Shown here piece by piece: positions 10,575 through 27,268 of a stretch of DNA of 28,072 nucleotides. Position 1 is the first letter of the stretch, and every line of letters begins with the position of its first letter. The notes beneath the pieces were generated by a model. That model did not search any database. It was not told where the DNA came from and worked only from the letters and a program-made list of their open reading frames with translations. The position numbers and the translations under genes were made by a program. Source of the DNA: a virus; IMG/VR virus record IMGVR_UViG_3300010354_000473, positions 1-28,072 of that record; one strand, given 5' to 3'.

Positions 10575-11804
10575 ATGGCAAACTACGGAAGTGTAAAAAC
10601 TATGAAAGGTGCCGCTATCGGCACCATCATGCCATGGGTTGGAGCTCTTACTGATGTTCCAGCTGGATGGTTAATTTGTAATGGGCAAGTTATAAATGCC
10701 GCTTCATATCCTCTTCTTGTGCAAAATATAGGTAGTACTTATGGTAGTTCTGGATTTAGTGGAACTTTCCCAAATTATACTGGAGAGATTACATTACCAA
10801 ATATTTCTCAGAGAGCACTTCAGGATATAGAAGCTTCTTATTTTGGTGGAGCTGGTGATAACACCAGCACAAATGAAGCACTCGCGGCACTAGTTGCACC
10901 AGGAACAAATACTTCGCTCATTGGACCAGATTCTGATAATGGAGTTGGTACAAATTACAATGCATACACTGATATTAATTTTTCTTATACTCCAGAAAAT
11001 GATTTTACTGGTAAATTAACTGGTGCTACCATAAATGAAACTTTTGGATCTAAAACAGTTTATGTTTCTCCTAGAAAATTAGGAAGAAGACATATTACAA
11101 TTCATAGTCATCCAACAACTTTCAATACAATTTATTCTGGATCTGATGGTAGTAGACCTGGAGTTGGTGTTGCCGCTTGGGGAGAAATTAATTATAGTAT
11201 TAACCGTGCTAATTTTGACCAACTTGATTATAGTCAAGTTCAAGCACAGTTGAGCATTCAATATACAAATCAACAGGGATTTGGCGGTGGTGCTCCTGGT
11301 GTTGTTATCGCTAATGTTCAAGGTGAAAATCCAACCTACAACTTAAAACCATATAATGTTGTTGGATCTCCAATTTCAAACTGGTTTGGACCTTATCAAA
11401 CAAAAGGAACAGCAAATACTAATCCTATGGATGAACAGTTTGTCGCAGGTGATAGTTTGCTGTATGTAGGTGGAGGTGGATCTCAAGCAGTATCAAATAG
11501 AAACTTTGATCCAGGTGGTGGAAATAGTGGTGACACTCTTACTTGGACAAAAACATTATTTGATTCCAATGCAATTAGTTTTAATCAAAATACTATTATT
11601 GCTGGACAACAGGCAGTTATTTCACCTCATGATCATGAACCATTTGAAACTACTTTTGACTTGGCTAATTTAAGATTGCCGAATACAACAAATGCAACGG
11701 TTATTTCAAATGTTACTCCAGCAAATGTTGATAAGGCGTTCAATTTAAATGTCACTACGTCAACACCTTCATTAATTTGCTTATATTTAATTAGGGCATT
11801 CTAG
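10575..11804 (+). CDS. Tail-collar domain protein, short tail fibre-like (copy A, 409 aa)
   Basis: Residues about 15-45 match the phage tail collar domain: an IGTIMPWVG strand, then PAGWLICNGQ and a YPLL segment, followed by FPNYTGEITLPNI. This domain is found in T4 gp12 and many phage fibre tips. Two HxH motifs are visible, HSH at 177-179 and HDH at 352-354. In T4 gp12 and gp37, HxH motifs from the three chains bind a metal ion and lock the trimer, so a similar role is inferred here. The protein ends in SLICLYLIRAF, the usual hydrophobic C-terminal strand of collar proteins. It starts 7 bases after the giant fibre gene with no clear ribosome binding site, which suggests translational coupling. 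Probable role is in host-surface contact. Confidence 0.85.
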   Translation: MANYGSVKTMKGAAIGTIMPWVGALTDVPAGWLICNGQVINAASYPLLVQNIGSTYGSSGFSGTFPNYTGEITLPNISQRALQDIEASYFGGAGDNTSTNEALAALVAPGTNTSLIGPDSDNGVGTNYNAYTDINFSYTPENDFTGKLTGATINETFGSKTVYVSPRKLGRRHITIHSHPTTFNTIYSGSDGSRPGVGVAAWGEINYSINRANFDQLDYSQVQAQLSIQYTNQQGFGGGAPGVVIANVQGENPTYNLKPYNVVGSPISNWFGPYQTKGTANTNPMDEQFVAGDSLLYVGGGGSQAVSNRNFDPGGGNSGDTLTWTKTLFDSNAISFNQNTIIAGQQAVISPHDHEPFETTFDLANLRLPNTTNATVISNVTPANVDKAFNLNVTTSTPSLICLYLIRAF

Positions 11805-12665: not shown

Positions 12666-14702
12666 ATGGCATTAGTATACGATTATAGACCTGGAGTAAA
12701 TTTAAATTTTCAATTATTAGATGGTTGTGCAGTATATGCATCTGGATATGGCGTATCTGGAGCAGTAAACACTGGCGAGCTAGGTGGATGGACAACTCCA
12801 ACAGGTCAATCGTATTTAAGTGTGGGAACATTTAATTCTACAAGTTATGTTCAAGATAGAGAAGCCACATTTTTATTAAATTTGACTTCCATGGATACTA
12901 TTACGTTTACTCTAATAGCGGGAAATGATTTTAATGGAGGGGAAAGACCAAATAATGCTGGTGAATCTTTGTATGTTAGAGGACCAAATGGTGCTACTAG
13001 ATTATTGGTATATTCTGGACAAGATGGTGGATATACATTTCCTGATATTGGGGGTCAAGAAGTTTGGTTTGATCGTTCTATTTCCTTAAATGAAGATGAA
13101 AAAGTTGTTGGATTATGGAGAATATATGCATTTAGCATTCAGCAACCAGAATTTGCAGGAACTGGTGGTATCTATGATTCGAATGTAAATGCTGGTGATA
13201 GATATGGGGTGTGTAGATTGCAAATCTATGGCACTCCACCAACTACGATTACTAATTTTAGTGCAAACGGGGGACAAGTAAGTACAGAGATAAATCCAGG
13301 AGATCCTGTAGTATTTGCTTGGAATACTAAAATCGGAACACTATCTACTGCTACTTCCACTAGTATAAACAATGGTATAGGAAATGTTACTCCAGTTGAT
13401 TCTGGAACTTACAATCTAGTTGTTGGTCCAACTCAAACTACAGTATATACTCTTACAGCTGTTGGTGTGACGGGAACAGCAACGGAAACAGTAACGGTTA
13501 CTGTCATAGCACCAGATACAGAACCAGATTTGTTCACTTTTCCTAATGTACAGGGAGCTGATTTAAGTACGTTGTATACTAGTGATACTGTAACTATTAG
13601 TGGATTGGGCGCTGGTATATCTTTAAATGTAAGTGCTACAAATGGAGCAGAAACATCAGTTGCTGGAGGAGCATTTTCCACTGCAACTAAGACAATTACG
13701 AATGGGCAAACTCTTCGTGTTAGAATGACTTCATCTGCAAGTTATGATACAACAAAAACAACTACAGTTTCTGTTGGTACTGTTAGTGGAACGTGGTCTA
13801 TTAGTACAAAATCTCCTCCAGCACAAATACCAAATGTGTTTACATTTAATAATGTTATTGATGCACCTTTGTCTGCATATACTACTAGTAATATAGTAAC
13901 TATTACTGGTATTACTACTAGTGTCACTGTAACAGCTCCTACTAATGGAACATATGCTCAATCTTCGGTTAATGATGGAGCGTTTAGTAATACAGCAAAA
14001 ACAATATCTAACGGACAAACTTTACAATTAAGAATTTTAACTAGTAATGTTTTGGGAGATACTAGAACTACTCAGATTCAAGTGGGTGATGGAGCATCAG
14101 TTAATTGGCAAGTTACAAATGTTTCGGTTGCAGATGGTTCTCCCGACTATTTTTCAATTGCTCCGTATAATAATGCTCCAGCTAATACAGCAGTTAATAG
14201 TGCAACATTTACTGTGACTGGAATAAATGTGCCATCTTCGATAACTACTACTAATGGAGCATTGATATCAATTAATGGTGGAACATATGGTACTTCTCCA
14301 CAAACTGTGAATAATAATGATTCTATAAGTATCAGAATTACTTCTAGTTCTACTCCTGGTGGGGAAGTATCTACAATTGTTACCATAGGAAATGGTAGTA
14401 CTACATTATCAAATACTTGGGTAGTTACAACTACTACAGCTGGCGATACATTGCCAGATGATTTCTTTTTCTTTAGTGTAAATAACCAACCACCAGGCAT
14501 TTATGTTTATAGTAATACAGTTATATTAGCTGGAATAACTTCTCCATCTACAATAACTGTTAGTGGTGGTGCTCAAGCATCTGTAAACGGTGGTGCTTGG
14601 GCAACTTCTGTTTCTGCTAGTGAAGGAGATACGTTGCAATTAAGAATACTTTCTTCCGCTACATTGGGAGCTACAATAACATCTACAATTACGGCAGGTT
14701 GA
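12666..14702 (+). CDS. Modular fibre/adhesin 1: unknown beta-rich head on a four-repeat stalk (678 aa)
   Basis: First of three paralogues. Residues 1 to about 195 form a head with no similarity that I can see to the other two; it is rich in Gly, Thr and aromatics and reads as a beta-sandwich, but I do not recognise the family. Residues about 198-283 are an Ig-like domain (VFAWNTK, then TTVYTLTAVG). Four stalk repeats start at residues 284, 389, 493 and 597. Each begins P-D/N-x-F, has an SNTVTITGI-like strand, then SVNGGAFS, ISNGQTLQLR and a final VxxG strand. The protein stops right after that strand in repeat 4. No signal peptide or membrane segment is seen. Probably a virion adhesin or decoration protein in the late operon. 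It starts 4 bases after the previous gene without a clear ribosome binding site. Confidence 0.75.
   Translation: MALVYDYRPGVNLNFQLLDGCAVYASGYGVSGAVNTGELGGWTTPTGQSYLSVGTFNSTSYVQDREATFLLNLTSMDTITFTLIAGNDFNGGERPNNAGESLYVRGPNGATRLLVYSGQDGGYTFPDIGGQEVWFDRSISLNEDEKVVGLWRIYAFSIQQPEFAGTGGIYDSNVNAGDRYGVCRLQIYGTPPTTITNFSANGGQVSTEINPGDPVVFAWNTKIGTLSTATSTSINNGIGNVTPVDSGTYNLVVGPTQTTVYTLTAVGVTGTATETVTVTVIAPDTEPDLFTFPNVQGADLSTLYTSDTVTISGLGAGISLNVSATNGAETSVAGGAFSTATKTITNGQTLRVRMTSSASYDTTKTTTVSVGTVSGTWSISTKSPPAQIPNVFTFNNVIDAPLSAYTTSNIVTITGITTSVTVTAPTNGTYAQSSVNDGAFSNTAKTISNGQTLQLRILTSNVLGDTRTTQIQVGDGASVNWQVTNVSVADGSPDYFSIAPYNNAPANTAVNSATFTVTGINVPSSITTTNGALISINGGTYGTSPQTVNNNDSISIRITSSSTPGGEVSTIVTIGNGSTTLSNTWVVTTTTAGDTLPDDFFFFSVNNQPPGIYVYSNTVILAGITSPSTITVSGGAQASVNGGAWATSVSASEGDTLQLRILSSATLGATITSTITAG
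13515..14699 (+). repeat. Four tandem stalk repeats of modular protein 1
   Basis: Four units of about 104-105 codons start at 13515, 13830, 14142 and 14454; the fourth is shortened to about 82 codons by the stop. The same four units occur in the same order in the two genes that follow. Unit 4 of all three has NQPPG near its start, and the linker into unit 2 has a conserved PP pair. Confidence 0.88.
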
Positions 14703-14703
14703 T

Positions 14704-16881
14704 ATGGCAGGTTCTATTACATTAACATATAATTATTCAGCTCAAGCACAGGTCATAACAATTCCAGCAGGAACACAAAGTCCCACTATTCTTGTTGCTG
14801 GTGCTAGAGGTGCGGGTGGTGGTTCTGATGCAGGTGGAAGTGCTGGTGGATATGGGCAAGGCAGAAGAGCTTCTTTTACAATTCCTCAGAGAAGTGTAGA
14901 TTATACTTTAACTTTATATGTTGGGGATGTTGGTTCTTCTGGGTTTGGTTGTGTAGCAGGAACTGGTGGAGGCGGTGGCGGTGACTGTGGAGGTACAAAT
15001 GATGGAGATGGTGGTAGAGGTGGTAATGCTGGAGGTAGTGGATGCTCGGGCGGTGGTGGCGGCGGTGGTGGCGCTACTGCAGTATTAGATAGTTTTATTG
15101 GTGGTTATGGTGTTGTTGCCGCTGGTGGTGGCGGCGGTGGCGGAGCTTCTCTAAATGCTAATGGGGGCAGTGGAAGTAGTGGAGGATTATTTCAATCTGT
15201 GGCATCAGTTAGTTTGGTTGATGGTGGACAGGGTGCAGACAAAGGTGGTGATGGCGCAGGCGGTGGTGGAGGCGGTGGTGGTCATACTGGTGGAGGTGGT
15301 GGTGGAGCTGGTCAAGATAATAGCTCTGGTGGTGGAGGTGGAAGTGGTGGAACATCTAGATATCATACTAGTTATACAATGGTTGCTGGATCTGAAAATC
15401 TTTCTGATTCTGGATATGTTCAAATAACTTTTACTGCACCTGCAACAATTCAGTATTTTAGAGCAAATGGGCAATACCCTTCAACAACTATTGTTCAAGG
15501 AGAAACCGTGGCATTATCTTGGGATACTAAGTTGAATAATATAGAAACATGTACTTCCGCTAGTATTAATCAAGGAGTTGGTGCAGTTTCGGTAGGAACT
15601 CAACAAATAATTGTAGGACCATTAAATGCTACAACAGTTTTTACATTAACTGCAACTGATGGTAGTACAACAGATACTGAAACTGTTACTGTTAATGTAG
15701 TTGCTCCTGATACAGAAGTTGATTCGTTTGCATTTAGTAGTGTATTAGATGCAAGTTTATCGACGTTATATACATCTAGTGCTATTACGCTTTCTGGTCT
15801 TGGTAATGGTATTTCTGTTAATGTTACAGCAACTAATGGAGCAGAAACATCAGTCAATGGTGGTGCATTTAGTACAGCAACTAAAACAGTTACAAACGGA
15901 TCAACCTTAGCAGTCAGAATGACCTCTTCTCCAAATTATAATACTGTCAAATCTACAACTATTTCTGTTGGAAGCGTCAATTCAGTTTGGTCTATCACTA
16001 CAGTATCTCCACCATCCCAAACACCAAATCCTTTCACATTCAATAATGTTATTGATGCAGCTTTATCTGCATATACCACCAGTAACACAGTAACAATAAC
16101 TGGCATAACACAATCGGTGACAGTAACATCTCCAACAAATGGATTCGAATCATCTGTTAATGGCGGTGCATTTAGTGCCGCAGCAAAAACAATAACCAAT
16201 GGGCAAACTTTGCAATTAAGAGTTTTAACTAGTAGCACTTTGGGAGATACTAAAAGCACTACAATTACTGTTGGGGATGGATCTCCAGCACCATGGAGCG
16301 TTACGAATGTTTTGGTTGCTGATTCTGCTCCAGATTTTTTTGATATACCAGATGTAATTGGTGCTGCATTAAATACAGTTACTAGCAGTACTCCAATTAC
16401 TATAACTGGTATAAATGTACCTACAACTGTATCTACCACAAATGGTGCCCAGATTAGTATTAATGGAGGAGCATTTGTAAATTCTCCAACAACTATTAAC
16501 AATAATCAAACAATAGCAGTTAGATTAACTTCTGCTAATAGTTATGGAGGAGTGGTATCTACTGATGTTACAATTGGTGGATTAACAGATGCATGGAATT
16601 TATATTCTACGACTGCTGGTGATACCATACCAGATGCGTTTAATTTTTCTAATAGAATAAATCAACCACCAGGAGTATTGGTTACTAGTAATACAGTTCA
16701 AATTACTGGTATTACGTCCCCATCTCCAGTTACAGTTACTGGTGCAGCACAATTTTCTGTTAATGGTGGTCCATGGATTACTAGCGGTAATATAAATAAC
16801 GGCGATACTTTGACATTAAGAATAACCTCTAGTGCTACCTTGGGGGGTTCTGTTTCCACCACAATCAGTATAGGAACATAA
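14704..16881 (+). CDS. Modular fibre/adhesin 2: polyglycine head on a four-repeat stalk (725 aa)
   Basis: Second paralogue. A short beta segment (residues 1-30) is followed by a glycine-rich domain at about 33-218 with runs of up to eight glycines, broken by Asp, Asn, Ser, Cys and two bracketing hydrophobic segments. Long glycine runs of this kind form packed polyglycine-II helices in the gp38 adhesins of T2/S16-type phages, where loops between them bind the receptor. I infer a comparable receptor-binding head here. An Ig-like domain covers about 246-335, and stalk repeats start at 336, 441, 543 and 643, ending with SIGT. The start is 1 base after the preceding stop, with AGG about 6 bases upstream. 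It differs from gp38 in being fused to its own stalk. Confidence 0.78.
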   Translation: MAGSITLTYNYSAQAQVITIPAGTQSPTILVAGARGAGGGSDAGGSAGGYGQGRRASFTIPQRSVDYTLTLYVGDVGSSGFGCVAGTGGGGGGDCGGTNDGDGGRGGNAGGSGCSGGGGGGGGATAVLDSFIGGYGVVAAGGGGGGGASLNANGGSGSSGGLFQSVASVSLVDGGQGADKGGDGAGGGGGGGGHTGGGGGGAGQDNSSGGGGGSGGTSRYHTSYTMVAGSENLSDSGYVQITFTAPATIQYFRANGQYPSTTIVQGETVALSWDTKLNNIETCTSASINQGVGAVSVGTQQIIVGPLNATTVFTLTATDGSTTDTETVTVNVVAPDTEVDSFAFSSVLDASLSTLYTSSAITLSGLGNGISVNVTATNGAETSVNGGAFSTATKTVTNGSTLAVRMTSSPNYNTVKSTTISVGSVNSVWSITTVSPPSQTPNPFTFNNVIDAALSAYTTSNTVTITGITQSVTVTSPTNGFESSVNGGAFSAAAKTITNGQTLQLRVLTSSTLGDTKSTTITVGDGSPAPWSVTNVLVADSAPDFFDIPDVIGAALNTVTSSTPITITGINVPTTVSTTNGAQISINGGAFVNSPTTINNNQTIAVRLTSANSYGGVVSTDVTIGGLTDAWNLYSTTAGDTIPDAFNFSNRINQPPGVLVTSNTVQITGITSPSPVTVTGAAQFSVNGGPWITSGNINNGDTLTLRITSSATLGGSVSTTISIGT
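15709..16878 (+). repeat. Four tandem stalk repeats of modular protein 2
   Basis: Units start at 15709, 16024, 16330 and 16630. They match units 1-4 of the genes on either side in order. The DNA is closest to the third gene: a stretch at 15856-15888 is identical over 33 bases to 17813-17845. Confidence 0.88.
16791..16798 (+). promoter_or_regulatory. Possible internal late promoter (TATAAATA)
   Basis: An exact copy of the late promoter octamer lies inside the last stalk repeat of modular protein 2, about 85 bases upstream of the next gene. It encodes part of a GNINN segment, so it may be a chance product of AT-rich coding sequence. If active it would give extra late transcripts of the third modular gene and the genes beyond. 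Confidence 0.4.
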
Positions 16882-16882
16882 T

Positions 16883-18853
16883 ATGGCTAATGTAAACATA
16901 AGTTGGGCATTGACTGAAGGTGGATTACAGAATCCTAGTGTTTATGGTTGGGTGGTTTCAGATAATGGTAATGGTGCTGGTACTAGATTGAGATATAACA
17001 TGGAAGCTTCTTCTAATTGTGGAGGCACCAATAGTGCTACACAAACAGGAACAGCTGTTGCCACTATAACTCCATTAGATGTCAATTATGACATGACTGT
17101 TAATTTATCTGGTGTTGGCGAAGGTCAAGATCCTGGATTTGAAGCTTTAACTATGACTATTAATACACCAGATGTAACTGGAACTATTAGAACTGCAGCA
17201 GCGGCGGGTGGTGGTCTAGGATGTACTGTTCGCCCTGTTAATATAACTACCCAGATACCTTCTCCTTATTATTTACCGAAAGGAATTCCTTGTACATTAA
17301 CTGTAGATTTTTCTTCTAGGGATGGTTTATATCATACAACTTCTTGTTTTTATCAAGTAGATTTAAGTTTTGAAATTGTAGATCCACCAACAAATATTCA
17401 ATCTTTTACTGGTAATACAGACCCAGATGAAACTACAATTACATTAGGAGAACCAGTAGTTTTAGCTTGGAATACGTTATGGAATGGACAATCATCGGCA
17501 TATAGTGCATCCATCAATCAAGGGATTGGAAACGTAACGCCGCTTGATTCTGGATCAGTGACGGTTTATCCAACTGTTACTACAACATATATTTTAACAG
17601 TTACTGGGTCAACTGGAACTGTAACTAAACAAGTAATTGTCACTGTTCTTTCCCCTGATAGTGAACCAGACCTATTTACTTTCGCCACCGTAGAAAATGC
17701 AGAATTGTCTACTTCGTATACTTCGGAAACAGTAACTATTTCTGGATTAGGTACAGTAGGAACAGTTGTTTCTGTTGATGTGACAGCAACTAATGGAGCG
17801 GAAACATCGGTTAATGGTGGTGCATTTAGTACAGCAACTAAAACAATTAGTAATGGTCAAACTTTGCGAGTTAGGATGACATCATCCGCAAATTACAATA
17901 CAAATAAAGTTACTACAGTAACAGTAGGATCTGTTAGTAATACGTGGACTATACTTACAAAAGCTCCACCATCTCAAATTCCAAATGCTTTTTCTTTTAA
18001 TGATGTCACCGAAGCTCCTTTGCAAACTTACACCAACAGTAATATTGTTACAATAACTGGTATAACCCAATCTACGACGGTAACATCACCAACAAATGGA
18101 TTTGAGACATCAGTTAATGGTGGTGCATTTAGTACAGCAGCAAAAACTATTTCTAATGGTCAAACATTACAATTAAGAGTTTTGACCACTAATGTTCTTG
18201 GAGAAACTAAATCAACAACTGTAATAGTAGGTGGCGGATCTCCAGTTTCGTGGAATGTCACTAATGTTTTAGTTGCTGATTCGAGTCCCAACTTTTTTGA
18301 TATAATAGACGTTATTGGTGCTAATCCTTCCACATTAACTAGTAGCCTCCCTGTGACTATTACTGGTATAAATGTTCCATCTACAGTAACTACTACTAAT
18401 AATGCTCAATTGAGAATCAATGGTGGATCATGGGTTAATTCTCCAACAACAATTAATGTTAATGAAACTTTACAAGTTAGATTAACTTCATCTCCAGATC
18501 CTGGTGGATTGGTGTCAACTGTAGTAACTGTAGGTAATAATCCAAGTACTAGTTTGTCTGATACTTGGAATTTGTATACCACAACCGATAACGATACAAT
18601 ACCAGATCCTTTTAATTTTATTAGTAAACCAAATCAACCACCAGGAGTATTAGTTACTAGTAATACTGTACAAATTAAAGGTATTACTACTGCTGCTCCA
18701 GTCACAGTTACTGGTGGAGCACAGTTCTCGGTCAATGGTGGATCGTGGGTTACAAGTGGTAACATAAATAATAATGATACCCTTACAATTCGGATAACTT
18801 CAAGTTCAACTTTAGGGGGAAACGTAAGTACTTCAATATCTATAGGAAACTAA
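16883..18853 (+). CDS. Modular fibre/adhesin 3: cysteine-containing unknown head on a four-repeat stalk (656 aa)
   Basis: Third paralogue. Residues 1 to about 165 are a head unlike the other two, with four scattered cysteines (in SNCGG, LGCTV, IPCTL and TSCFY contexts) and an alternating hydrophobic pattern that suggests beta-strands; I do not recognise its family. An Ig-like domain spans about 168-258 and the stalk repeats start at 259, 367, 469 and 574, ending SIGN. The stop falls at the same point of repeat 4 as in the two upstream paralogues. AGGA lies about 7 bases before the ATG, inside the end of the previous gene. It is probably a late virion protein with a host-contact head, by analogy with the neighbouring polyglycine gene. 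That role is inferred. Confidence 0.75.
   Translation: MANVNISWALTEGGLQNPSVYGWVVSDNGNGAGTRLRYNMEASSNCGGTNSATQTGTAVATITPLDVNYDMTVNLSGVGEGQDPGFEALTMTINTPDVTGTIRTAAAAGGGLGCTVRPVNITTQIPSPYYLPKGIPCTLTVDFSSRDGLYHTTSCFYQVDLSFEIVDPPTNIQSFTGNTDPDETTITLGEPVVLAWNTLWNGQSSAYSASINQGIGNVTPLDSGSVTVYPTVTTTYILTVTGSTGTVTKQVIVTVLSPDSEPDLFTFATVENAELSTSYTSETVTISGLGTVGTVVSVDVTATNGAETSVNGGAFSTATKTISNGQTLRVRMTSSANYNTNKVTTVTVGSVSNTWTILTKAPPSQIPNAFSFNDVTEAPLQTYTNSNIVTITGITQSTTVTSPTNGFETSVNGGAFSTAAKTISNGQTLQLRVLTTNVLGETKSTTVIVGGGSPVSWNVTNVLVADSSPNFFDIIDVIGANPSTLTSSLPVTITGINVPSTVTTTNNAQLRINGGSWVNSPTTINVNETLQVRLTSSPDPGGLVSTVVTVGNNPSTSLSDTWNLYTTTDNDTIPDPFNFISKPNQPPGVLVTSNTVQIKGITTAAPVTVTGGAQFSVNGGSWVTSGNINNNDTLTIRITSSSTLGGNVSTSISIGN
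17657..18850 (+). repeat. Four tandem stalk repeats of modular protein 3
   Basis: Units start at 17657, 17981, 18287 and 18602. Units 1 and 2 share a 26-base identical stretch (17811-17836 and 18114-18139), so DNA-level similarity exists within this gene as well as with modular protein 2. Confidence 0.87.
18763..18770 (+). promoter_or_regulatory. Possible internal late promoter (CATAAATA)
   Basis: This matches the looser cyanophage late motif NATAAATA and lies in the same place in repeat 4 as the motif in the preceding paralogue, about 85 bases before the next start codon. Chance coding of GNINN is an alternative explanation. Confidence 0.28.
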
Positions 18854-18854
18854 T

Positions 18855-20120
18855 ATGCCATATACCACTACATGGAACGTTGGAACCTATAATTCTGCTG
18901 ATGCTTCAGACCCTGGAGTATGGTATAGTAGAAAAGGAAAAAAGGAAGATGGTCTTGCGATAGGTACAGTTATTTCTATATTCAGAGATAGAACTGGAAA
19001 CTGGGGAGATTTGAGTGGAAATTTAGATTCAAGATATCCTGGGTGGAAAGAATGTGATGGGTCTACTGTAAGTGCAACGGATTTTCCAGATTTATTTGAT
19101 GCTATTGGCAATACTTATGGTGGAAATGCCACTAAAACTTTAAGTGGGAATAGTTATACCTATGCAGGAACTTTTAAACTTCCCAATTATAAATTGCGTA
19201 AATTATTTGGTCTTGGTAACGTAGATGGAAACGCAGCATCTTCTCCAATTGTCACAACATACAAAGGACCAGATGTAAATTCTACAGCTACTGGAGATGG
19301 AAATACCGTAGGATCTACTGGAGGTAATTGGTATATTAAAAAAATTGATGCAGCTGGAACACCTCCCGATGAACAAGTATATTCTGGTGTTGTCCCTCCA
19401 GATGGTAAATTTTTTAAATTGGGTAGCTTAACTACTACTGGTGCTGATACAATTAAAGGAGAGACGACATATACTATAACTGGTAATGTTTCTGGGGTAA
19501 TTGGACCAATAAAAGAAACAATTGTTATTCCAGCTCAACATGAACATGATGTTGTCACTGCTCAAAATGATGAAATCAACGTTGGTTGTGTTGCCTGGGG
19601 TACACCTGCGTTTTATCAAATTGGCACTGGAGAAATAGGTAAAACACTATATCCTTCTATTGGATATAACAGTGTTGTTGCTCCTGGTGGTAGTGTTAAT
19701 AGAACTTTTAATAACTATTGGGCTGGTGATGTACAAAATAATATTTCTGGATTGCCTAGTGGTGGAAACCATTCTGCTGGTATTGATATTAACACGGTTA
19801 CTGGAAACGTATCTGTGTGGTCTCCTGGAGAATTAAAAACACACTCACATTATTTGTCTTTGAATTCTTTTGGAACACCACAGAACGTGTATGGATATGG
19901 AAATGATAATGGTGGTGGTATTGCTGCTGGTAGCATGTCAACTGCTACTACAGTTACAATTAATTTTTCTCAAACAGAACTTGCATTATCTGCAAATGAA
20001 GCAGTTTTTGCATTAAATCCATCCAAAAAAGTTTTACCTACTCCATCCTTGTCTCCAGAAAATACTGTTCCACTTATGACTAAATACTATCGAGTTAAAT
20101 ATATCATCAAAGCTTTTTGA
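18855..20120 (+). CDS. Tail-collar domain protein, short tail fibre-like (copy C, 421 aa)
   Basis: A third collar-domain protein. Residues about 34-75 show GTVISIFRD, a loop, then PGWKECDGS and the FPDLFDAIG segment; FKLPNYKLRKLFGLG follows, as in other collar proteins. Two HxH motifs are present, HEH at 229-231 and HSH at 330-332, suitable for trimer-locking metal binding as known in T4 fibres. The C-terminus, YYRVKYIIKAF, is the usual final strand. AGGA lies 7 bases before the ATG. It differs from copies A and B in having a longer N-terminal leader before the collar. It is followed directly by the oxygenase cluster. The most likely role is in a fibre tip or short tail fibre. Confidence 0.84.
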   Translation: MPYTTTWNVGTYNSADASDPGVWYSRKGKKEDGLAIGTVISIFRDRTGNWGDLSGNLDSRYPGWKECDGSTVSATDFPDLFDAIGNTYGGNATKTLSGNSYTYAGTFKLPNYKLRKLFGLGNVDGNAASSPIVTTYKGPDVNSTATGDGNTVGSTGGNWYIKKIDAAGTPPDEQVYSGVVPPDGKFFKLGSLTTTGADTIKGETTYTITGNVSGVIGPIKETIVIPAQHEHDVVTAQNDEINVGCVAWGTPAFYQIGTGEIGKTLYPSIGYNSVVAPGGSVNRTFNNYWAGDVQNNISGLPSGGNHSAGIDINTVTGNVSVWSPGELKTHSHYLSLNSFGTPQNVYGYGNDNGGGIAAGSMSTATTVTINFSQTELALSANEAVFALNPSKKVLPTPSLSPENTVPLMTKYYRVKYIIKAF

Positions 20121-20127: not shown

Positions 20128-20784
20128 ATGGGAGTTACGCCAATTAGACCACTTGAGTTGATGAAAGATGAAAACATCACCAAGTCTGAATTTAATGATT
20201 TTATTGGTATTTGGGAGAATTTTGTTCCTCCTTATGTGTGCCAAAAAACTATAAATTTTTTTGAAGAAACTATTGCAGTATCAACTTTTTATAATGAAGA
20301 TCTTGCCAGCGATGAATTTGGTGTTTTGGATGGCACTGGTCAATTTCAGAATGGTAGCTTGGGAAGAAAAGATCTTTCAATTCTTTTAAATTATTCAAAT
20401 CCAAAATTAAATTATGAGTTGCAACAATATCTCAATGCTTGTACGCAACATTATGTGGACAAATACGATCAATTAAAAAATTCTAAATTGATTGCTGAAG
20501 ATAATAAAATGCAAAAAACTCCTCCTGGTGGGGGATATCACGTTTGGCATTATGAAAATGCTGGTTATGGTCATCATGCAAGGGAACTTGTTTGGGCTAT
20601 TTACCTAAATGATATGCCAGATGGAGAAGCAGAGACAGAGTTTTTGTATCAAAGAAGAAGGATTAAACCTACCGTAGGAACCGTAGTTATATGGCCTGCG
20701 GGTATGACACATGTTCATAAAGGAAATACAGTATTTACTCAAGATAAATACATTTTAACAGGTTGGTTTATCAAGGCTCCATAA
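20128..20784 (+). CDS. 2OG-Fe(II) oxygenase, HxE type (218 aa)
   Basis: Probable non-haem iron dioxygenase that would use 2-oxoglutarate and O2 to hydroxylate an unknown substrate. Candidate iron ligands are H141 and E143 (in VWHYEN) and a distal histidine at 195 or 197 (in MTHVHKGN). K207 (in DKYILTGW) is the likely 2-oxoglutarate salt-bridge residue. Between them lies YLNDMPDGEAETEF, typical of the double-stranded beta-helix core. The usual motif is HxD; HxE is known from the clavaminate synthase group, so activity is plausible. A strong ribosome binding site (GAGGAA) overlaps the stop of the preceding collar gene. It leads a run of five oxygenase genes in the late operon. Confidence 0.8.
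   Translation: MGVTPIRPLELMKDENITKSEFNDFIGIWENFVPPYVCQKTINFFEETIAVSTFYNEDLASDEFGVLDGTGQFQNGSLGRKDLSILLNYSNPKLNYELQQYLNACTQHYVDKYDQLKNSKLIAEDNKMQKTPPGGGYHVWHYENAGYGHHARELVWAIYLNDMPDGEAETEFLYQRRRIKPTVGTVVIWPAGMTHVHKGNTVFTQDKYILTGWFIKAP
20743..20750 (+). promoter_or_regulatory. Weak late-promoter-like motif (GATAAATA)
   Basis: Fits NATAAATA and lies 33 bases before the next start codon, the same sort of spacing as the main late promoter to its gene. It is inside the coding sequence and has a non-consensus first base, so support is weak. Confidence 0.2.
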
Positions 20785-21728
20785 TGACAAATTATTCCGA
20801 TTACATGCAACCAACTAAAGCAGAGTTGGATAAATTTTGGTCTGAGGTAGCTGCTCCCAGATCTTCAAGATTAGAATTTAATTTTAAAGAAAGAGCAGTT
20901 ACTTTAGGATTAATCAATGAAGGATCTACCACTACCTTCATTGAAGATGATGCATGGGAAGAAAAAGTAATGCCATTGTTGACTGATATTTGGCATTATG
21001 AAAACAGAGATGAATTAGAATATATTATTTTATATACTGATAATACTTTTCTGTGTCAAAAAAGAAAATTAAAATATGATTTTTCTAGTGAATCGTCATA
21101 TTGGGTTACATATGAATATAAGGAATGTAATAGCTCAGAAGTGGTGGAATTATGTGACCAACTAGAAGCAATTGTAACAATACAAAAAGAAACTGAATTA
21201 AATAGCCTCCTTACTGAAATAAGAGAATTGGATGCTATGGATTTTTATTATGATGCTAAGTGGTATAAGAAAAAAGATGAAATTAATAAAATGCTTCTCT
21301 TTTCCGATTGGAGAGTTTTGCCAGATGCACCTCAAAAATTTGAAGGTGAAAGAGATATGTGGATAATTTGGAGACAAAAATTAAGAGATTTACTACCATC
21401 TAATCCGAGAGAAGTTTTTGAATCTAACTTTGAAATGTTTAAATTTGTCACTACTGTCAAATATCCTATTGATCCGTTGGTTTACCTTGACAAATATCCT
21501 GATCGTGAAGTAGAATATCTGTCTACGGATGATCAATATGATAAGTATGATTTTGTAGTATCAAAAGATTTTACAAGTGCTACAATGATGAATCTTATTA
21601 TCTTCATGGAAACATATGATGATCAAATCAGACCAATTAATGCAAAAATTCTAGAAATTGCTAAAAAATTAAAATTAGAGGAAGTTTACCCAAGTTTAGA
21701 TTACAATAAATTTATAGCGAATGAATAA
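20784..21728 (+). CDS. Protein with tail-fibre-assembly-chaperone-like motif (314 aa)
   Basis: Starts at the ATG that shares one base with the preceding stop, with AAGG about 7 bases upstream; a longer TTG start 21 bases earlier is less likely. Residues about 173-205 read FSDWRVLPDAP, a short helix, then WRQKLRDLLP. This is the pattern of phage tail assembly chaperones (the DW..LPDAP then YRQ.LRD motif of the Phage_tail_APC family). The rest (1-170 and 210-314) is acidic and helical and is not recognised. Position right after the fibre genes fits a chaperone that helps fold or trimerise them. The call is from motif plus context; the large flanking regions could carry another role. Confidence 0.6.
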   Translation: MTNYSDYMQPTKAELDKFWSEVAAPRSSRLEFNFKERAVTLGLINEGSTTTFIEDDAWEEKVMPLLTDIWHYENRDELEYIILYTDNTFLCQKRKLKYDFSSESSYWVTYEYKECNSSEVVELCDQLEAIVTIQKETELNSLLTEIRELDAMDFYYDAKWYKKKDEINKMLLFSDWRVLPDAPQKFEGERDMWIIWRQKLRDLLPSNPREVFESNFEMFKFVTTVKYPIDPLVYLDKYPDREVEYLSTDDQYDKYDFVVSKDFTSATMMNLIIFMETYDDQIRPINAKILEIAKKLKLEEVYPSLDYNKFIANE

Positions 21729-21730
21729 TT

Positions 21731-22375
21731 ATGATACATGTATTTGATATGTTACCTTTGTCTGTGGTAAAAAACATTAAAGATTTTTATGAATTTTGTG
21801 AGTTTACAGATGGATCTTGGTCTGGATCAGCAAACAAAGATCTGAAATATAATGAACAAATATTAGATGAAATACATTATCCATCATTAGTTCAGTTGAT
21901 GGATAAGTATATCTCTGAAAATGCAGAATTTAATTATTATTTTCTTCCGCGTGGTCATACACATCCTAATTTTTTGAGATATAAAGAAGGAATGCACTAT
22001 GCTTGGCATAATGACATGTGGATTCTTGATGGAATGAAAACAGATTATAGTGTTACATGTTTTCTTTCTTCTCCAGATGAATATGAAGGTGGGGAACTTG
22101 TCATTGAAGTTGGTGGGAAGGAATTAGAATATAAATTAAATCCTGGTCAAGCTGTAATTTACCAAACAGGATTACATCATTCTGTTAAAAAAGTAACTAA
22201 AGGTGAAAGAAAAGTTATTACTTGGTGGTTCTGTTCTATGATTGATAATGGCAGAAACAGAGAAATTATTACAGAGTTTAGTAAGTTACTTGCACAGATG
22301 GAGCCAGAGCATCCATTAAAACATAAATTTGAAACTATTCGTCACAATTTGATTAGAGAAAATGCAATCATTTAG
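21731..22375 (+). CDS. PKHD-type 2OG-Fe(II) prolyl hydroxylase-like oxygenase (214 aa)
   Basis: The clearest oxygenase of the set. FLRYKEGMHYAWHNDMW gives the HxD pair H93 and D95. TCFLSSPDEYEGGELVIE is the conserved core. The segment GLHHSVKKVTKGERKVITWW provides the distal iron ligand H150 and the 2-oxoglutarate-binding R160. This arrangement matches the PiuC/YbiX (PKHD) family of prolyl-4-hydroxylase-like enzymes, which bind Fe(II) and 2-oxoglutarate. A C-terminal helical tail of about 35 residues follows the core. No good ribosome binding site precedes the ATG, which lies 2 bases after the upstream stop. The substrate is unknown; a peptidyl proline is the natural guess from the family. 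Confidence 0.88.
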   Translation: MIHVFDMLPLSVVKNIKDFYEFCEFTDGSWSGSANKDLKYNEQILDEIHYPSLVQLMDKYISENAEFNYYFLPRGHTHPNFLRYKEGMHYAWHNDMWILDGMKTDYSVTCFLSSPDEYEGGELVIEVGGKELEYKLNPGQAVIYQTGLHHSVKKVTKGERKVITWWFCSMIDNGRNREIITEFSKLLAQMEPEHPLKHKFETIRHNLIRENAII

Positions 22376-22901
22376 TGTAGATGATATTGTAGAATATCCA
22401 AATGTTTTTAGTTCTTCTGATCAATCTTCTGTATTAAGATATACGCAATTAGATAAATGGGCATGGGGACACAAAAGCAATCAAACCGAAAAAGATAATA
22501 TGCCTCCATTTTGGTATATGGGGTTATCTAATGAAAAATTTTTTTCTGACTATTTGCTTAAAAAAATTGAATCTGCTACTGGAGAACAATTTGATTTGGA
22601 GAGAGTTTATGCTAATGGGCAAACATATGGTATGCGTGGGAAACCACATGTTGATGGGTATGTAGATACATGTAGAACTTTTTTGTATTATCCTATGGAA
22701 TGCTGGGATGTTCAATGGGGTGGTAAAACCGCATTCATCATACCAACCGAAACTGGAACTAAATATCATTATGTTATTCCAGAACCTAACAAAGGAGTTA
22801 TATTTCCAGGACAAATGTATCATTGGGCGGAAGAAACCACTCGATCTTTTGGTGGAATAAGAATAACTATTGCTTGGAAACTATTCAAAAAACTATCATG
22901 A
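22362..22901 (+). CDS. 2OG-Fe(II) oxygenase (179 aa)
   Basis: Overlaps the preceding gene by 14 bases. Residues 88-98 read YGMRGKPHVDG, giving the HxD pair H96 and D98; the distal histidine is H154 (in MYHWAEE) and the 2-oxoglutarate arginine is R167 (in GGIRITIAW). The core strands TFLYYPM and GGKTAFIIP lie between them. This is the compact prolyl 4-hydroxylase-like layout, without extra domains. All expected catalytic residues are present, so it should be active. It is only distantly similar to the oxygenase upstream, so the pair is not a recent tandem duplication. Substrate unknown. Confidence 0.84.
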   Translation: MQSFSVDDIVEYPNVFSSSDQSSVLRYTQLDKWAWGHKSNQTEKDNMPPFWYMGLSNEKFFSDYLLKKIESATGEQFDLERVYANGQTYGMRGKPHVDGYVDTCRTFLYYPMECWDVQWGGKTAFIIPTETGTKYHYVIPEPNKGVIFPGQMYHWAEETTRSFGGIRITIAWKLFKKLS

Positions 22902-23242
22902 GCTATCAAGTTTACGAATTTCAAACGATTATAGAAGAATATGTGAAAGCAAAGGGCAAACCTCATTTGTTTGTGCGTGTAGTTGGACCAAACAAATGTA
23001 AAGACGTAGAAAAATTAAATAAGATCTACGATCTCTATCGTCACCTTGTTTCACATGATGTATTTACTGCAATTTTCTACAATGAAATGTTTATTATGGA
23101 GTTTGAAACTGTAGAAGCAGCAGATACATTCTTATCAGATAGTTTTCCAAATTCTCCAACCGATGGAGATCCAGATTATTATATTTTTGGTGCAGTATAT
23201 AATGAGCAAGGGCAGGTAGTATTTTCTAATGAGGGTGAATGA
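22898..23242 (+). CDS. Unrecognised small protein between oxygenase genes (114 aa)
   Basis: The ATG at 22898 overlaps the preceding stop in an ATGA arrangement, which fits translational coupling; an upstream in-frame TTG would add 25 residues inside the oxygenase gene and is unlikely. The protein is mixed charged, with a predicted helix-strand pattern (HLFVRVVGPNKCKD, then AIFYNEMFIMEFETVEAADTFL) and an acidic end. It has no signal peptide or membrane segment. I do not recognise a family. Being locked inside the oxygenase cluster suggests a partner or adaptor role, which is only inference. Confidence 0.72.
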   Translation: MSYQVYEFQTIIEEYVKAKGKPHLFVRVVGPNKCKDVEKLNKIYDLYRHLVSHDVFTAIFYNEMFIMEFETVEAADTFLSDSFPNSPTDGDPDYYIFGAVYNEQGQVVFSNEGE

Positions 23243-23243
23243 G

Positions 23244-24128
23244 ATGTCAATAGTTGATCATTACATTGGAGTGAAAGAATATAGTATTGATACTGAAACT
23301 CAAATTAGTTATCATAAGTATATTCCTTATGAATATATTAACTACGGAGAAGAATATATTAATTCTTTATCTGTAGACGTAATTAAAAATTATTATAAAT
23401 TTTTTGCTGACTTGGAAGTTGGTAAAGGATTTCAAAAAGATGCTATTTTTAAAACAAACACATGTGGATTGTGGACATCTTTTAGTAATTCTGAAGAGGT
23501 AGAAGCATATCACTCTTATTTCTCATATGATTATGGTAACATGTCAGAAGAAGATGTTACAAAATTCTACCAAACTGTTATCAATAAAGCTGAATCTCCT
23601 TTAGTGAAATATTTTAGGCATCAAGAATTGGATATGGGTATTGAAGGTATAACTGTAGATATTATGGGTTCAGTTTTGAAGTATATTATGTTATTCAGAC
23701 CAAATTCTGATGTTTTATCTTATCTACCTGATTTAGAAAAAATTGATAACGTACAGCAATTTGTGGATTTAAATTATATGAATATTAAACAGGGGTTATC
23801 TGCTGACCCAGATTCTTTTAAATCTCCTATTCGTATTCAATTTGATGCAGATAACGATAAAAAAATATCTATCGAATTAGTAAGTGCATTTTTTCAAAAA
23901 GAGTATTATTTAAGTAAAAATTCTTACAGTGGATACATTGATAGGAAAAACAAATATTTTGATAGAATGTTGGAATCTGGGTTGTTAACATCTGAAGAAG
24001 TTGAATTTTGTAAGCAGAAGAGCCCTGAATGGCAACAGTTTTCTGTAAAGTTTAAGTGGGAAGATGGTGTCATAGTAGACAAAAAATTATATACTTTTGT
24101 TGTCGTTGATTTTGAAGAAGTTGCATGA
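23244..24128 (+). CDS. Unrecognised protein in the oxygenase cluster (294 aa)
   Basis: The start at 23244 is chosen because GAGG lies 9 bases upstream; another ATG 15 bases earlier overlaps the preceding gene. The protein is acidic and rich in Tyr, Phe, Asp and Glu, and mostly helical in its first two thirds. No HxD iron motif, signal peptide or membrane helix is visible. The last 80 residues hold a charged segment (IDRKNKYFDRMLESG) and two strands (FSVKFKWEDG, YTFVVVDFEE). I do not recognise it. It ends with an ATGA overlap into the next oxygenase, so the two are probably made together. Confidence 0.75.
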   Translation: MSIVDHYIGVKEYSIDTETQISYHKYIPYEYINYGEEYINSLSVDVIKNYYKFFADLEVGKGFQKDAIFKTNTCGLWTSFSNSEEVEAYHSYFSYDYGNMSEEDVTKFYQTVINKAESPLVKYFRHQELDMGIEGITVDIMGSVLKYIMLFRPNSDVLSYLPDLEKIDNVQQFVDLNYMNIKQGLSADPDSFKSPIRIQFDADNDKKISIELVSAFFQKEYYLSKNSYSGYIDRKNKYFDRMLESGLLTSEEVEFCKQKSPEWQQFSVKFKWEDGVIVDKKLYTFVVVDFEEVA

Positions 24129-24688
24129 TTTTAGGAACTATTGTTGGTAAGTATGAATTAAATGATTTTAATAATAAACAAGTTGAAAATTTTTTATATT
24201 CATTAAAAGAATCGCAAACTAATTCTGATGTTCATTCGAACCGTAAAGGTTGGCAAAAGAATGAACTTCAGAACATGCCACAACTAAAGAATTTAATTGA
24301 TGCTATAGGTGAGCAATTCCACAATTTTATTCAGCATGAGTTAAATCCCATTTCACCATGCAAATTTTATTTGGGTAATATGTTTTGCAACATCAATCCC
24401 ACTGGAGCATATCATTTACCACACATACATGAAGGTGATTTTACTGGCGTGTATTATGTGAAAGCACCTAAAAATTGTGGTAATCTTTGTTTAATTAATC
24501 CACATCAATGTCAAAGTACAGCAAAAATGACTTCATTGTTTGCTAATGTGAAGTTAGAAGAAAAGATAGAACCAATAGAAGGTTGTGGATACTTTTTTCC
24601 TACTTACATAAATCATTATGTAGAAGAAAATTTATCTGATGAAGATAGAATTTCGATATCATATAATATCAATATTCAACGAGGTTAA
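24125..24688 (+). CDS. 2OG-Fe(II) oxygenase, PF13759-like (187 aa)
   Basis: Overlaps the previous gene by ATGA. The central segment YHLPHIHEGDFTGVYYVK, followed by GNLCLINP, matches the putative 2OG-Fe(II) oxygenase family Pfam PF13759 (2OG-FeII_Oxy_5), common in cyanophages. Likely iron ligands are among H100, H102 and the distal H164 (in INHYVEEN), and R175 (in EDRISISYN) should hold 2-oxoglutarate. The family uses a histidine-rich HxH-type first motif rather than plain HxD, so the exact ligand set is inferred. The N-terminal 75 residues are helical and include NRKGWQKN, often seen as a substrate-side region in this family. Substrate unknown. Confidence 0.82.
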   Translation: MILGTIVGKYELNDFNNKQVENFLYSLKESQTNSDVHSNRKGWQKNELQNMPQLKNLIDAIGEQFHNFIQHELNPISPCKFYLGNMFCNINPTGAYHLPHIHEGDFTGVYYVKAPKNCGNLCLINPHQCQSTAKMTSLFANVKLEEKIEPIEGCGYFFPTYINHYVEENLSDEDRISISYNINIQRG

Positions 24689-24690
24689 TT

Positions 24691-25287
24691 ATGTTATGTA
24701 AAGTTATTGATGGATTGTTTGATGACATTTATGTGCATCAATTGGATGCTATGATTAGAGATATTCCTCTTTGCACAAACAACATTGCCAACAGATCTAC
24801 GTGGCCTTTTGGACAAGAAGGTACGCATAGATTACTTGGTCAAATATTATTTGATAGAAAATCTTTGAACAGAATAACAGTATTACATGAATCTGCAAAA
24901 ACATTTTTTGATGTATTTGAAATGATTGAAGATAAACTACAAACTAAATTTTATCTGTCTCAAATATCATTGAATGTTCAGCATACTGGTTGTGATGGAA
25001 CTACTCATTGTGATAGTAATAACCCTAATGATTTTACAATTATGGTTATGACTAATTCTAAATGGGAATCTGAGTGGGGTGGGCAATTTCAATTAACGAC
25101 ACCAGATGGTTCAGTTGTTGTTGAAGAACACGAATATAAACCTGGAAGATTAATAGTAATACCTTCTACACATCCTCATCGAGGATTAGCACCTACCGAA
25201 AAATATGTATATCGTAGCACGGTGGTCTTTAGAGTTACTCCTAGGATGGTAAAATCAACCGAAAAGAATTTTTGGCAGGGGGCTTGA
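24691..25287 (+). CDS. 2OG-Fe(II) oxygenase (198 aa)
   Basis: Fifth oxygenase and last gene of the late block. GTTHCDSNN gives the HxD pair H106 and D108; the WGGQFQLTTPDG core follows; STHPHRGLAP supplies the distal histidine (H163, or H161); and R175 (in YVYRSTVVFRV) is the likely 2-oxoglutarate ligand. This is a prolyl 4-hydroxylase-like layout. A strong GAGG ribosome binding site lies 8-11 bases before the ATG. Its stop codon (25285-25287) is inside the -35 box of the next promoter. The substrate is unknown, and it shares little beyond catalytic motifs with the other four. Confidence 0.84.
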   Translation: MLCKVIDGLFDDIYVHQLDAMIRDIPLCTNNIANRSTWPFGQEGTHRLLGQILFDRKSLNRITVLHESAKTFFDVFEMIEDKLQTKFYLSQISLNVQHTGCDGTTHCDSNNPNDFTIMVMTNSKWESEWGGQFQLTTPDGSVVVEEHEYKPGRLIVIPSTHPHRGLAPTEKYVYRSTVVFRVTPRMVKSTEKNFWQGA

Positions 25288-25317
25288 CAGGGGGTTGACG
25301 CCCGTGCTACAGTAGCA
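25284..25317 (+). promoter_or_regulatory. Sigma-70-like promoter with extended -10 and palindromic element
   Basis: TTGACA at 25284-25289 is a perfect -35 box. TACAGT at 25308-25313 is a 4/6 match to the -10 box at 18-base spacing, and TG at 25305-25306 gives an extended -10. A second TTGACG starts 11 bases after the first, one helical turn away. The -10 is covered by a perfect dyad, TGCTAC-A-GTAGCA (25305-25317), which could be an operator. The start would fall near 25320, with a leader of about 18 bases before the ATG at 25338. Host RNA polymerase would be expected to read it, so the genes downstream are probably early. Confidence 0.78.
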
Positions 25318-25337
25318 GAGCACTGAACAGGACACCC

Positions 25338-25571
25338 ATGAAAGGCATCATCGATTACGGTGACGACGGCGTAGTTCCGATGATTGACTCGGATGACGTT
25401 GAAACCGTTGTTGAAAACATTCTTGAATATGTAGAAGCACGGTTCGAAATCCTTGATAAGATGGGTGACCGTGACCGTGACATCTTTGCTCTTGTTGAAG
25501 AGTTTCAAGAGTGGGGCGCTGCTGAGCAAGGGGACGAAGTTTCTTATTTTGTATGTCCAACTTTTGAATAA
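25338..25571 (+). CDS. Small acidic protein, first gene after the early-type promoter (77 aa)
   Basis: Very acidic protein with a long helical middle (DVETVVENILEYVEARFEIL) and a C-terminal end containing YFVCPTFE. No recognised family, no membrane segment. AGGA lies upstream of the ATG at normal spacing, and it is the first gene after the promoter. Codons such as CGT, GAC and GTT are used more than in the structural genes. First place in an early operon suggests strong early expression, perhaps a host-takeover protein; this is inference from position and size. Confidence 0.78.
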   Translation: MKGIIDYGDDGVVPMIDSDDVETVVENILEYVEARFEILDKMGDRDRDIFALVEEFQEWGAAEQGDEVSYFVCPTFE

Positions 25572-25600
25572 TCCTACATAATAACACATTCAACAGGACA

Positions 25601-25726
25601 ATGACTACTCCCAACTGGCAACATCACTCTAAAAAAGAGCAGAAACGTACACTGAAACCACAGGCAATTCGTCAGGCAAAAGCTCGTAAGCAGGCGCTCA
25701 AGCGTCAACTGGAGGTAATCAAATGA
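25601..25726 (+). CDS. Tiny basic protein (41 aa)
   Basis: A short gene that fits the gap exactly: AGGA lies at 25595-25598, the ATG at 25601, and the stop overlaps the next ATG as ATGA. The product is strongly basic and helical (QAIRQAKARKQALKRQLEV), with no acidic residues except near the start and end. It could bind nucleic acid or an acidic partner such as the preceding protein. Family not recognised. The good ribosome binding site and coupling make it more than a chance open frame. Confidence 0.7.
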   Translation: MTTPNWQHHSKKEQKRTLKPQAIRQAKARKQALKRQLEVIK

Positions 25727-25908
25727 CCCACTATGACAAACTGATTGATTCTATCGTTGATGAAATCTACTATGTGTGGACTGAAGTTTCCAGTTGGAAT
25801 GAAGACGACCAAGAAACTGCAAAAGAAGCAGCACATCGTATTCTTCAGCATGTAGAAGAGTTTCAAACTGTTCGCACTAAACTTAATCAATGGAGAGCAT
25901 CTGACTGA
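25723..25908 (+). CDS. Small acidic helical protein (61 aa)
   Basis: Preceded by GGAGG at good spacing and joined to the preceding basic gene by ATGA. It is a helical, acidic protein with several tryptophans (VWTEVSSWNED) and a helix-rich end (AAHRILQHVEEFQTV). No known domain is seen. It overlaps the following gene by one base. Confidence 0.76.
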   Translation: MTHYDKLIDSIVDEIYYVWTEVSSWNEDDQETAKEAAHRILQHVEEFQTVRTKLNQWRASD

Positions 25909-26114
25909 TGGCATTATCTAAACAAGTAGAAGAATCGCTTGACGAAGCACAAGCAGCATTGCGTAATGCACTTGCATATGCAGCGCGAAATGAACGTCCT
26001 GTAGTGAATCAGGGTATCGCAGAATTGATGTGTGATATTGAAAAACTGAAATCGGTGGACAAACTGTTTGACACTCTTGACTCTTGGAAAGATGAATCTT
26101 CTAAAAATCAATAA
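25908..26114 (+). CDS. Small helical protein (68 aa)
   Basis: Starts on the last base of the preceding stop (TGATG). The sequence is a long amphipathic helix (SLDEAQAALRNALAYAARN) then a second helix (ELMCDIEKLKSVDKLF), so a helical hairpin or dimer is likely. It reminds me of small conserved proteins in cyanophage early regions, but no function is known to me. Confidence 0.75.
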   Translation: MALSKQVEESLDEAQAALRNALAYAARNERPVVNQGIAELMCDIEKLKSVDKLFDTLDSWKDESSKNQ

Positions 26115-26319
26115 AGCAGCACTATATCAACCACCAGTTAAAACAACTCCACAAAATGTCAAAGAGGCAAACGAGGGGTTGTTTAACTGTACGATGACAC
26201 TTCCTGCTGCTGCAGCTCACTGTGGTATGACACAAAAAGAAATGAAATTAACGTTCTTTGAGTATCTTAAATACCACCCACGCACATATGTAAGCGAACC
26301 ACAACACAACGGTGATTGA
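26092..26319 (+). CDS. Small protein with a helix-turn-helix-like segment (75 aa)
   Basis: The ATG at 26092, with GGAAAG just before it, is preferred over an earlier TTG. It overlaps the previous gene by 23 bases. Residues 36-58 read TLPAAAAHCGMTQKEMKLTF, which has the spacing of a helix-turn-helix (small residues in helix one, GMT in the turn, a charged recognition-like helix). A DNA-binding role is possible but the match is by eye only. The N-terminal part (ALYQPPVKTTPQNVKEAN) is probably extended. Confidence 0.68.
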   Translation: MNLLKINKAALYQPPVKTTPQNVKEANEGLFNCTMTLPAAAAHCGMTQKEMKLTFFEYLKYHPRTYVSEPQHNGD

Positions 26320-26614
26320 TTATGGTAACGAGCGTCTCAATCAAATATATAGAGACACATGGCCTAATCTGGGGTGGGCAAGAATGGATAGAATCAAAGC
26401 AGGAGACACTGTAAAGTTTCTGGGATGCTCTAAAGAACAAGTTCAGTGGGGCAATAATACCGATCCAACTGGTATTCTAATAGTGGGCGACAAATATTAT
26501 GTTGAGCATGTCTATGTGCATTCTCAACATACTAAAATAGAGCTCAGAGGAGTCAAAGGTAAATTTAACTCAGTATGTTTTGAGGTGACACATGACACAC
26601 GAAGAAATGCTTGA
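26312..26614 (+). CDS. Unrecognised small protein, GTG start likely (100 aa)
   Basis: The frame opens with GTG at 26312, overlapping the preceding stop by 8 bases but without a clear ribosome binding site; an internal ATG at 26384 would give 76 residues and cannot be ruled out. The conserved-looking part is the second half: GDTVKFLG, then GILIVGDKYYVEHVYVHSQH and GKFNSVCFEV. This alternation suggests a small beta-barrel of about 60 residues, similar to SH3- or KOW-like folds. Function unknown. Confidence 0.66.
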   Translation: MIDYGNERLNQIYRDTWPNLGWARMDRIKAGDTVKFLGCSKEQVQWGNNTDPTGILIVGDKYYVEHVYVHSQHTKIELRGVKGKFNSVCFEVTHDTRRNA

Positions 26615-27089: not shown

Positions 27090-27268
27090 TGGAAGTCACT
27101 GAACATAATGTAGATGCTGACTTCAACCATGCTGAAGTTCAAGCATTGATGGCACTCGTCAAGGGTCAAATGTTACGAGAAGACAACGATAGCTTCACCA
27201 ACTTGTTTTATGCCAAAATCTATGGTAAACTGGTGGGTATCAAGCATGGTCTGATTGATTATGAGTAA
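27089..27268 (+). CDS. Small protein (59 aa)
   Basis: Starts on the last base of the preceding stop and runs to the TAA at 27266-27268, filling a gap that otherwise would be empty. The product is mostly helical (AEVQALMALVKGQMLR, then LFYAKIYGKLVGIKHGL), with an acidic N-terminus. It overlaps the next gene by 8 bases. Codon use matches its neighbours. Family not recognised. Confidence 0.68.
   Translation: MEVTEHNVDADFNHAEVQALMALVKGQMLREDNDSFTNLFYAKIYGKLVGIKHGLIDYE

Follow-up and report, generated by a model that had tools for sequence, protein, structure and literature searches.

The window analysed here is the whole of IMG/VR virus record IMGVR_UViG_3300010354_000473, a linear stretch of 28,072 bases whose gene content points to a T4-like cyanophage. 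Its genes run from an open reading frame (ORF) of 3454 amino acids (aa), through two collar/short-fibre genes, three tandem genes that we designate A, B and C, and a third collar gene, to 2-oxoglutarate (2OG)-Fe(II) oxygenases and a tail assembly chaperone. Judged by its genes, the window is a baseplate/short-tail-fibre locus of the Kyanoviridae type; a megablast search matched the locus to none of the isolated phages. In exactly the span that a first-pass annotation made from the nucleotide sequence had given for them (12666-18853), A, B and C are complete ORFs that begin with ATG on the + strand, with 1 nucleotide between neighbours. We report that their products end in an unfinished immunoglobulin (Ig)-like domain whose missing strand lies at the N-terminus of the adjoining collar protein, an arrangement by which exchangeable heads would probably dock on a common fibre.

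The products of A, B and C have the common C-terminal plan that the annotation had described: the alignment of the three covers one Ig-like pre-domain followed by four repeats of ~100 aa (R1 to R4) in identical order, and R4 stops within one residue of the same point, at positions 83, 84 and 84 of the 100 positions of a hidden Markov model (HMM) of the repeat. Identity over this stalk is 64% for A/B, 62% for A/C and 72% for B/C. The stalk consists of Ig-like sandwiches in a row, with Foldseek/VIA matches to the tandem Ig chains of titin, ICAM and contactin at Z scores up to 9.3, most of them falling in residues 166-567 of C, and the predicted local distance difference test score of AlphaFold2 (AF2) models is mostly 85-95 over the repeats of A and C. 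A comparison of the stalk profile with PDB sequences gave no match. The N-terminal heads that the stalks carry measure ~190 aa in A, ~245 aa in B, where the head is glycine-rich, and ~167 aa in C. They are indeed unalike in sequence: no pairwise BLASTP comparison was significant, the best E value being 0.046 between the glycine-rich head and that of C. AF2 predicts beta-rich heads for A and C.

The head sequences had no match in Pfam, and head B matched only virion structural families 2155 and 29022 in PHROG; it is related to protein v3 of S-PM2 (E 1e-44). Among the related loci, which are cited by number (L005 and so on), only L011 and L023 hold an orthologue of head C. A peptide-pattern scan with protein B as query returned no viral contig although L005 and L012 hold B orthologues, which marks a limit of that method. 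Annotated relatives are named "hypothetical protein", "PE-PGRS family protein" or "virion structural protein". One stretch of a protein of S-MbCM6 (L038 1618-4461) is 34% identical to head A; the protein is encoded near photosystem II genes, far from the fibre locus, and the names "major head protein" and "PA14 domain-containing protein" given to it in records are unsupported by Pfam.

What stops at the shared end point in A, B and C is an incomplete last domain, without the final strand of repeats 1-3. A repeat profile of 100 positions was built from repeats 1-3 alone of 20 stalks of the window family, in which the cut has this position; R4 length was taken in all 20 stalks, and R4 end points were scored in the 13 distinct ones. 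R4 is 81-84 aa long in 20/20, against ~102 for a full repeat, and it ends at HMM position 82-84 in 13/13, before the last beta strand, while repeats 1-3 continue into a "TWxIxT" strand and a linker. The AF2 models agree: closing strands of repeats 1-3 are found at residues 351-359, 455-461 and 558-566 of protein C and at 373-381, 479-485 and 579-589 of protein A, and R4 has none in either.

The collar gene at 18855-20120 stands in the synteny known from Kyanoviridae, with two collar genes upstream and a 2OG oxygenase and the tail assembly chaperone downstream. Its product starts with MPYTTTWNVGTYNSAD; when this start is joined to R4, the match to the profile extends in register to position 99-100 and gains 8-12 bits. 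Control segments appended to R4, taken from the N-termini of neighbouring head genes and from the body of the collar protein, gain less than the cognate collar. When 476 ORF N-termini from 18 loci were ranked as completers of R4, the window family's eight collar genes took ranks 1-8. The stalk, described at first as the attachment part, hardly looks sufficient in itself as an anchor, because its last domain is unfinished and the missing strand is found at the N-terminus of the collar protein. We call the incomplete domain the plug and the collar protein that would complete it the socket (Table 1).

Table 1. Features of the fibre locus, in positions of the window
Feature	Position	Strand	Parts and support
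Head-stalk protein A, 678 aa	12666..14702	+	head ~12666-13240, pre-domain to ~13523, R1 13524, R2 13830, R3 14142, truncated R4 14454-14699
Head-stalk protein B, 725 aa, glycine-rich head	14704..16881	+	head ~14704-15444, pre-domain to ~15717, R1 15718, R2 16024, R3 16330, truncated R4 16630-16878
Head-stalk protein C, 656 aa	16883..18853	+	head ~16883-17383, pre-domain to ~17665, R1 17666, R2 17981, R3 18287, truncated R4 18602-18850
gp12-like collar fibre protein, presumed socket protein, 421 aa	18855..20120	+	phrog_4924 E 9e-81; PF07484 E 3.4e-11, 43.4 bits vs cut-off 24
Collar codons 1-17, MPYTTTWNVGTYNSADA	18855..18905	+	supply repeat positions ~84-100 missing in R4 of A, B and C (HMM completion test)
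Short-tail-fibre/collar protein 1, 409 aa, upstream locus member	10575..11804	+	phrog_4591 E 2e-94; Pfam Collar PF07484 E 5e-14
Tail collar protein 2, 284 aa	11807..12661	+	phrog_4714 E 5e-90; PF07484 E 4e-6
Tail assembly chaperone, presumed accessory role, adjoins socket gene across family	20763..21728	+	phrog_4697 E 4e-65

The system extends beyond these three genes and is family-wide, and the split recurs in ten other isolated cyanophages: S-PM2, Syn1, S-RIM44, S-CAM1, S-CAM3, S-CAM4, ACG-2014e, -i and -j, and Sf-CH11. The collar protein of these phages is longer (980-1180 aa) and has complete repeats of its own, and its residues 4-53 match HMM positions 48-96, so that it starts in the middle of a repeat. 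The upstream products, annotated as "virion structural protein", share a C-terminal half-domain (...DIDIPVEIK...PIqV...W..VRqI) that matches roughly HMM positions 8-52. With a profile that held neither plugs nor sockets, plug and socket joined scored higher than the socket alone for 29/30 heads, a gain that controls failed to reproduce. Sockets occur once per genome (49 places in 49 records); most genomes (8/10) have three plugs, S-CAM3 has six and S-CAM4 two. In ACG-2014e (gp032, L010 8418-13787) and ACG-2014j (gp031, L032 6261-11846) a pair of head proteins forms one fused chain, and the first plug has become an internal half-domain, at residues 1157-1224 and 1235-1303, respectively. Plugs are 67% identical within genomes versus 47% between genomes, and the identities of plugs and sockets between genomes covary (r = 0.89, Mantel p = 0.0002), which is consistent with matching of the two parts and is no proof of it.

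Comparison of relatives, with trees built by FastTree, bears out the expectation that heads change while stalks stay. The stalk of the window's protein C groups with those of the window's protein B and of L005 B (71-72% identity) and is only 52% identical to the C stalk of L023, whose head is orthologous to the window's head C at 63%. Across lineages, identity is 45-60% within the head A family and 63% for head C, and the glycine-rich head family is spread over Kyanoviridae and present on both kinds of plug. Beside the socket, the window has the gene set A-B-C, L005 and L012 have A-B, L016 has A alone and L023 has A-C-B; Sf-CH1b and L017, L019, L022 and L024 carry A and a long B with multiple glycine-rich parts. 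Recombination of heads with plugs is also seen among S-RIM44, Syn1 and ACG-2014j, in a sharp switch near residue 155. Over residues 1-155, protein v2 of S-RIM44 is 81-95% identical to v1 of ACG-2014j, which belongs to another genus; thereafter identity drops to 27-56%. With v2 of Syn1, from its own genus, the S-RIM44 protein shares the last ~60 residues that form the plug (95-100% identity), and the heads of the two are unrelated. The socket proteins of S-RIM44 and Syn1 are 90-100% identical. General scans of the window genes named no reverse transcriptase; the record is a fragment, and no search aimed at this enzyme was made.

The sequence evidence for the split and for head swapping is strong: the split domain and its conservation, the single socket with several plugs, the covariation of the two and the replacement of heads can all be read from the genes. 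We think it probable that these features reflect exchangeable heads, each attached to the collar fibre through the completion of a split Ig domain. A, B and C would then be head modules, most likely host-surface adhesins, borne on a common stalk of Ig beads. The last Ig-like domain lacks its final strand in the window family, or its second half in the other genera, and the N-terminus of the downstream collar fibre protein would complete it (R4 in the window family) by beta-strand or split-domain complementation, thereby docking the head. Because all heads of a genome carry the same plug and each genome has one socket, recombination could add, remove, reorder or replace heads with no change to the attachment. 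Should the collar form a trimer, as T4 gp12 does, up to three heads could be mounted per fibre. Physical complementation, this trimer stoichiometry, presence in the virion and receptor binding are what we infer from the arrangement. A fibre on which the three N-terminal strands of a trimeric collar hold three different heads, giving a combinatorial set of adhesins in which new heads arrive as cassettes on the resident plug, is an unlikely extension of this reading; genomes most often carry three plugs, and S-CAM3 carries six. A strict heterotrimer with one of each head was set aside, as L005 has two stalk genes and L016 one.

Several observations weigh against this explanation. The docking of heads on the collar is itself proposed from sequence, and common ancestry alone can yield part of the correlation between plugs and sockets. 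The window family has one to three heads, so a strict one-of-each trimer is not needed. The N-terminus of T4 gp12 is on the baseplate side, and the heads could accordingly sit near the baseplate and not at the tip. Confidence is low over most of the AF2 models of heads A and C, and no claim about fold is based on them. Joining brings no gain for v2 of ACG-2014i, S-SCSM1 is without the plug-socket arrangement, and in Sf-FR1 the fit is confined to the last head protein with the phage's own collar. The collar protein of Sf-FR1 (L029 8612-14173) is 1853 aa long, with many repeats and an embedded member of the glycine-rich head family; it is perhaps a head fused to a socket protein.

Published work on related phages is compatible with involvement in host interaction but does not prove it. 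Genes S-PM2d219, 220 and 224 mutated during coexistence of S-PM2d with resistant Synechococcus (PMC9910659); S-PM2d224 is the collar (socket) gene of the locus, and S-PM2d219 and 220 are two fibre/collar genes upstream of it. Tail-fibre and baseplate structural proteins were the main targets of adaptation in S-TIM4 (PMC6224464). For S-SM1, 41 virion proteins have been reported by Sullivan et al. (PMC3037559).

The same arrangement could be read with its polarity inverted. The heads would then be adaptors that fix the collar fibre at different sites of the baseplate or of other fibres, the collar C-terminus would be the receptor-binding tip, and the split Ig domain would be a joint in a composite fibre. 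The collar protein does have a gp12-type collar domain, the host-binding end of T4 gp12 is its C-terminal part, and two more collar proteins are encoded in the same operon. An anchor, however, is expected to be conserved like the baseplate, and the heads come and go, change their order and pass from one genus to another; L016 has a single head protein between the contig start and the collar. This turnover of modules leads us to rank the adaptor reading below that of adhesins and to regard it as unlikely. Somewhat less likely still is that the heads share one diverged fold and that the set arose by ordinary duplication and divergence. Heads A and C are both predicted to be beta-rich, and their models are of too low a quality to argue against a common fold, but the heads lack sequence similarity even though each family is conserved across lineages to the extent given above, and the glycine-rich head has its own family across Kyanoviridae.

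The split might also be the relic of a gene fission, in which an ancestral head-stalk-collar chain was cut inside a repeat, the pieces became independent and R4 is stable without its last strand. Fission or fusion must have happened, since complete repeats and a collar domain form one chain in many relatives. The cut is nevertheless kept within about two residues across lineages whose collars are 55-68% identical, also in stalks that do not adjoin the collar gene, and a second cut elsewhere in the repeat is likewise complementary and common to 2-6 genes per genome; we judge a mere relic to be quite improbable. In favour of a programmed frameshift or stop bypass that fuses the last head gene to the collar, the stop and the next ATG are one base apart, and a +1 shift would join the halves. 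The identical spacing at A/B and B/C, where fusion would be senseless, speaks against it, as do the overlapping TAATG junction of Sf-CH1b and the socket genes of most other genera, which begin tens of bases past the last head gene. Since the geometry of the junction varies, this possibility was set aside as scarcely credible.

Other genes of the window accompany the fibre genes. The tail assembly chaperone is the same neighbour of the socket gene in S-PM2, Syn1, S-CAM1, S-CAM3, S-CAM4 and ACG-2014e. A run of 2OG-Fe(II) oxygenase-type genes lies 3' of the fibre genes at 20128-25287, as in relatives, with Pfam/PHROG support for five genes; the enzymes could hydroxylate fibre proteins. For 22362-22898 and 24691-25284 the top PHROG name is "DNA endonuclease V" (phrog_274) and Pfam gives 2OG-Fe(II) oxygenase; RefSeq cyanophage records use the endonuclease name as well, but it looks doubtful for these genes. 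A tRNA-Thr (TGT) is located at 34-106, directly 5' of the giant 3454-aa ORF. Positions 25000-28072 contain short genes with no assigned function, and G+C rises there from ~0.30 to 0.40-0.42.

Marine T4-like cyanophages infect Synechococcus and Prochlorococcus, and host recognition by their tail proteins is largely unassigned; many "missing" tail-fibre genes have been noted (PMC2984593). If correct, a half-domain plug with a single socket would at once provide several families of "virion structural protein" with a name and a role and would account for the exchange of heads between genera. If the collar N-terminus completes the stalk domain, a split-domain coupling used by many heads would exist naturally in a virion. 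Phages with multiple adhesins, head exchange (DT57C, CBA120) and donor-strand complementation in pili are known already. Searches of the open-access literature turned up no account of split Ig domains or of donor-strand docking in cyanophage fibres, and within that literature a split Ig domain common to several heads and one fibre protein appears to be new.

In chaperone-usher pili, an Ig-like domain that lacks one strand is completed by the N-terminal strand of a partner, a process termed donor-strand complementation or exchange. The sequences of the locus suggest the same two elements, an incomplete Ig-like domain and a partner's N-terminal strand. Unlike in pili, several head proteins share one kind of incomplete domain and one fibre protein would give the strand, and neither an usher nor a FimC-like chaperone was identified. 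The gp38 protein of T4-like phages such as S16 is an adhesin of the polyglycine type. Head B resembles it as a glycine-rich putative binding head, but has no Pfam match and is joined to an Ig stalk and plug instead of being seated on gp37. LtfA and LtfB of the T5-like phage DT57C (PMC4728585) and TSP1-4 of CBA120 (PMC8825819) are like the locus in having several receptor-binding proteins per attachment system, with exchange of the binding parts. CBA120 TSP4 is described there as anchored by its N-terminal residues (PMC8825819), whereas at the locus it is the N-terminal part that varies, and attachment would presumably be through the C-terminal incomplete domain. The closest likeness in synteny, collar domain, repeats and glycine-rich head family is to the gp12-like short tail fibre of Kyanoviridae (PHROG 4924, T4-GC 740) and the "virion structural proteins" encoded upstream of it (T4-GC 737-739). 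In the window family the Ig repeats are on the head proteins and are cut before the last strand (HMM ~84), whereas elsewhere they are on the collar protein and the cut falls in mid-domain (HMM ~50).

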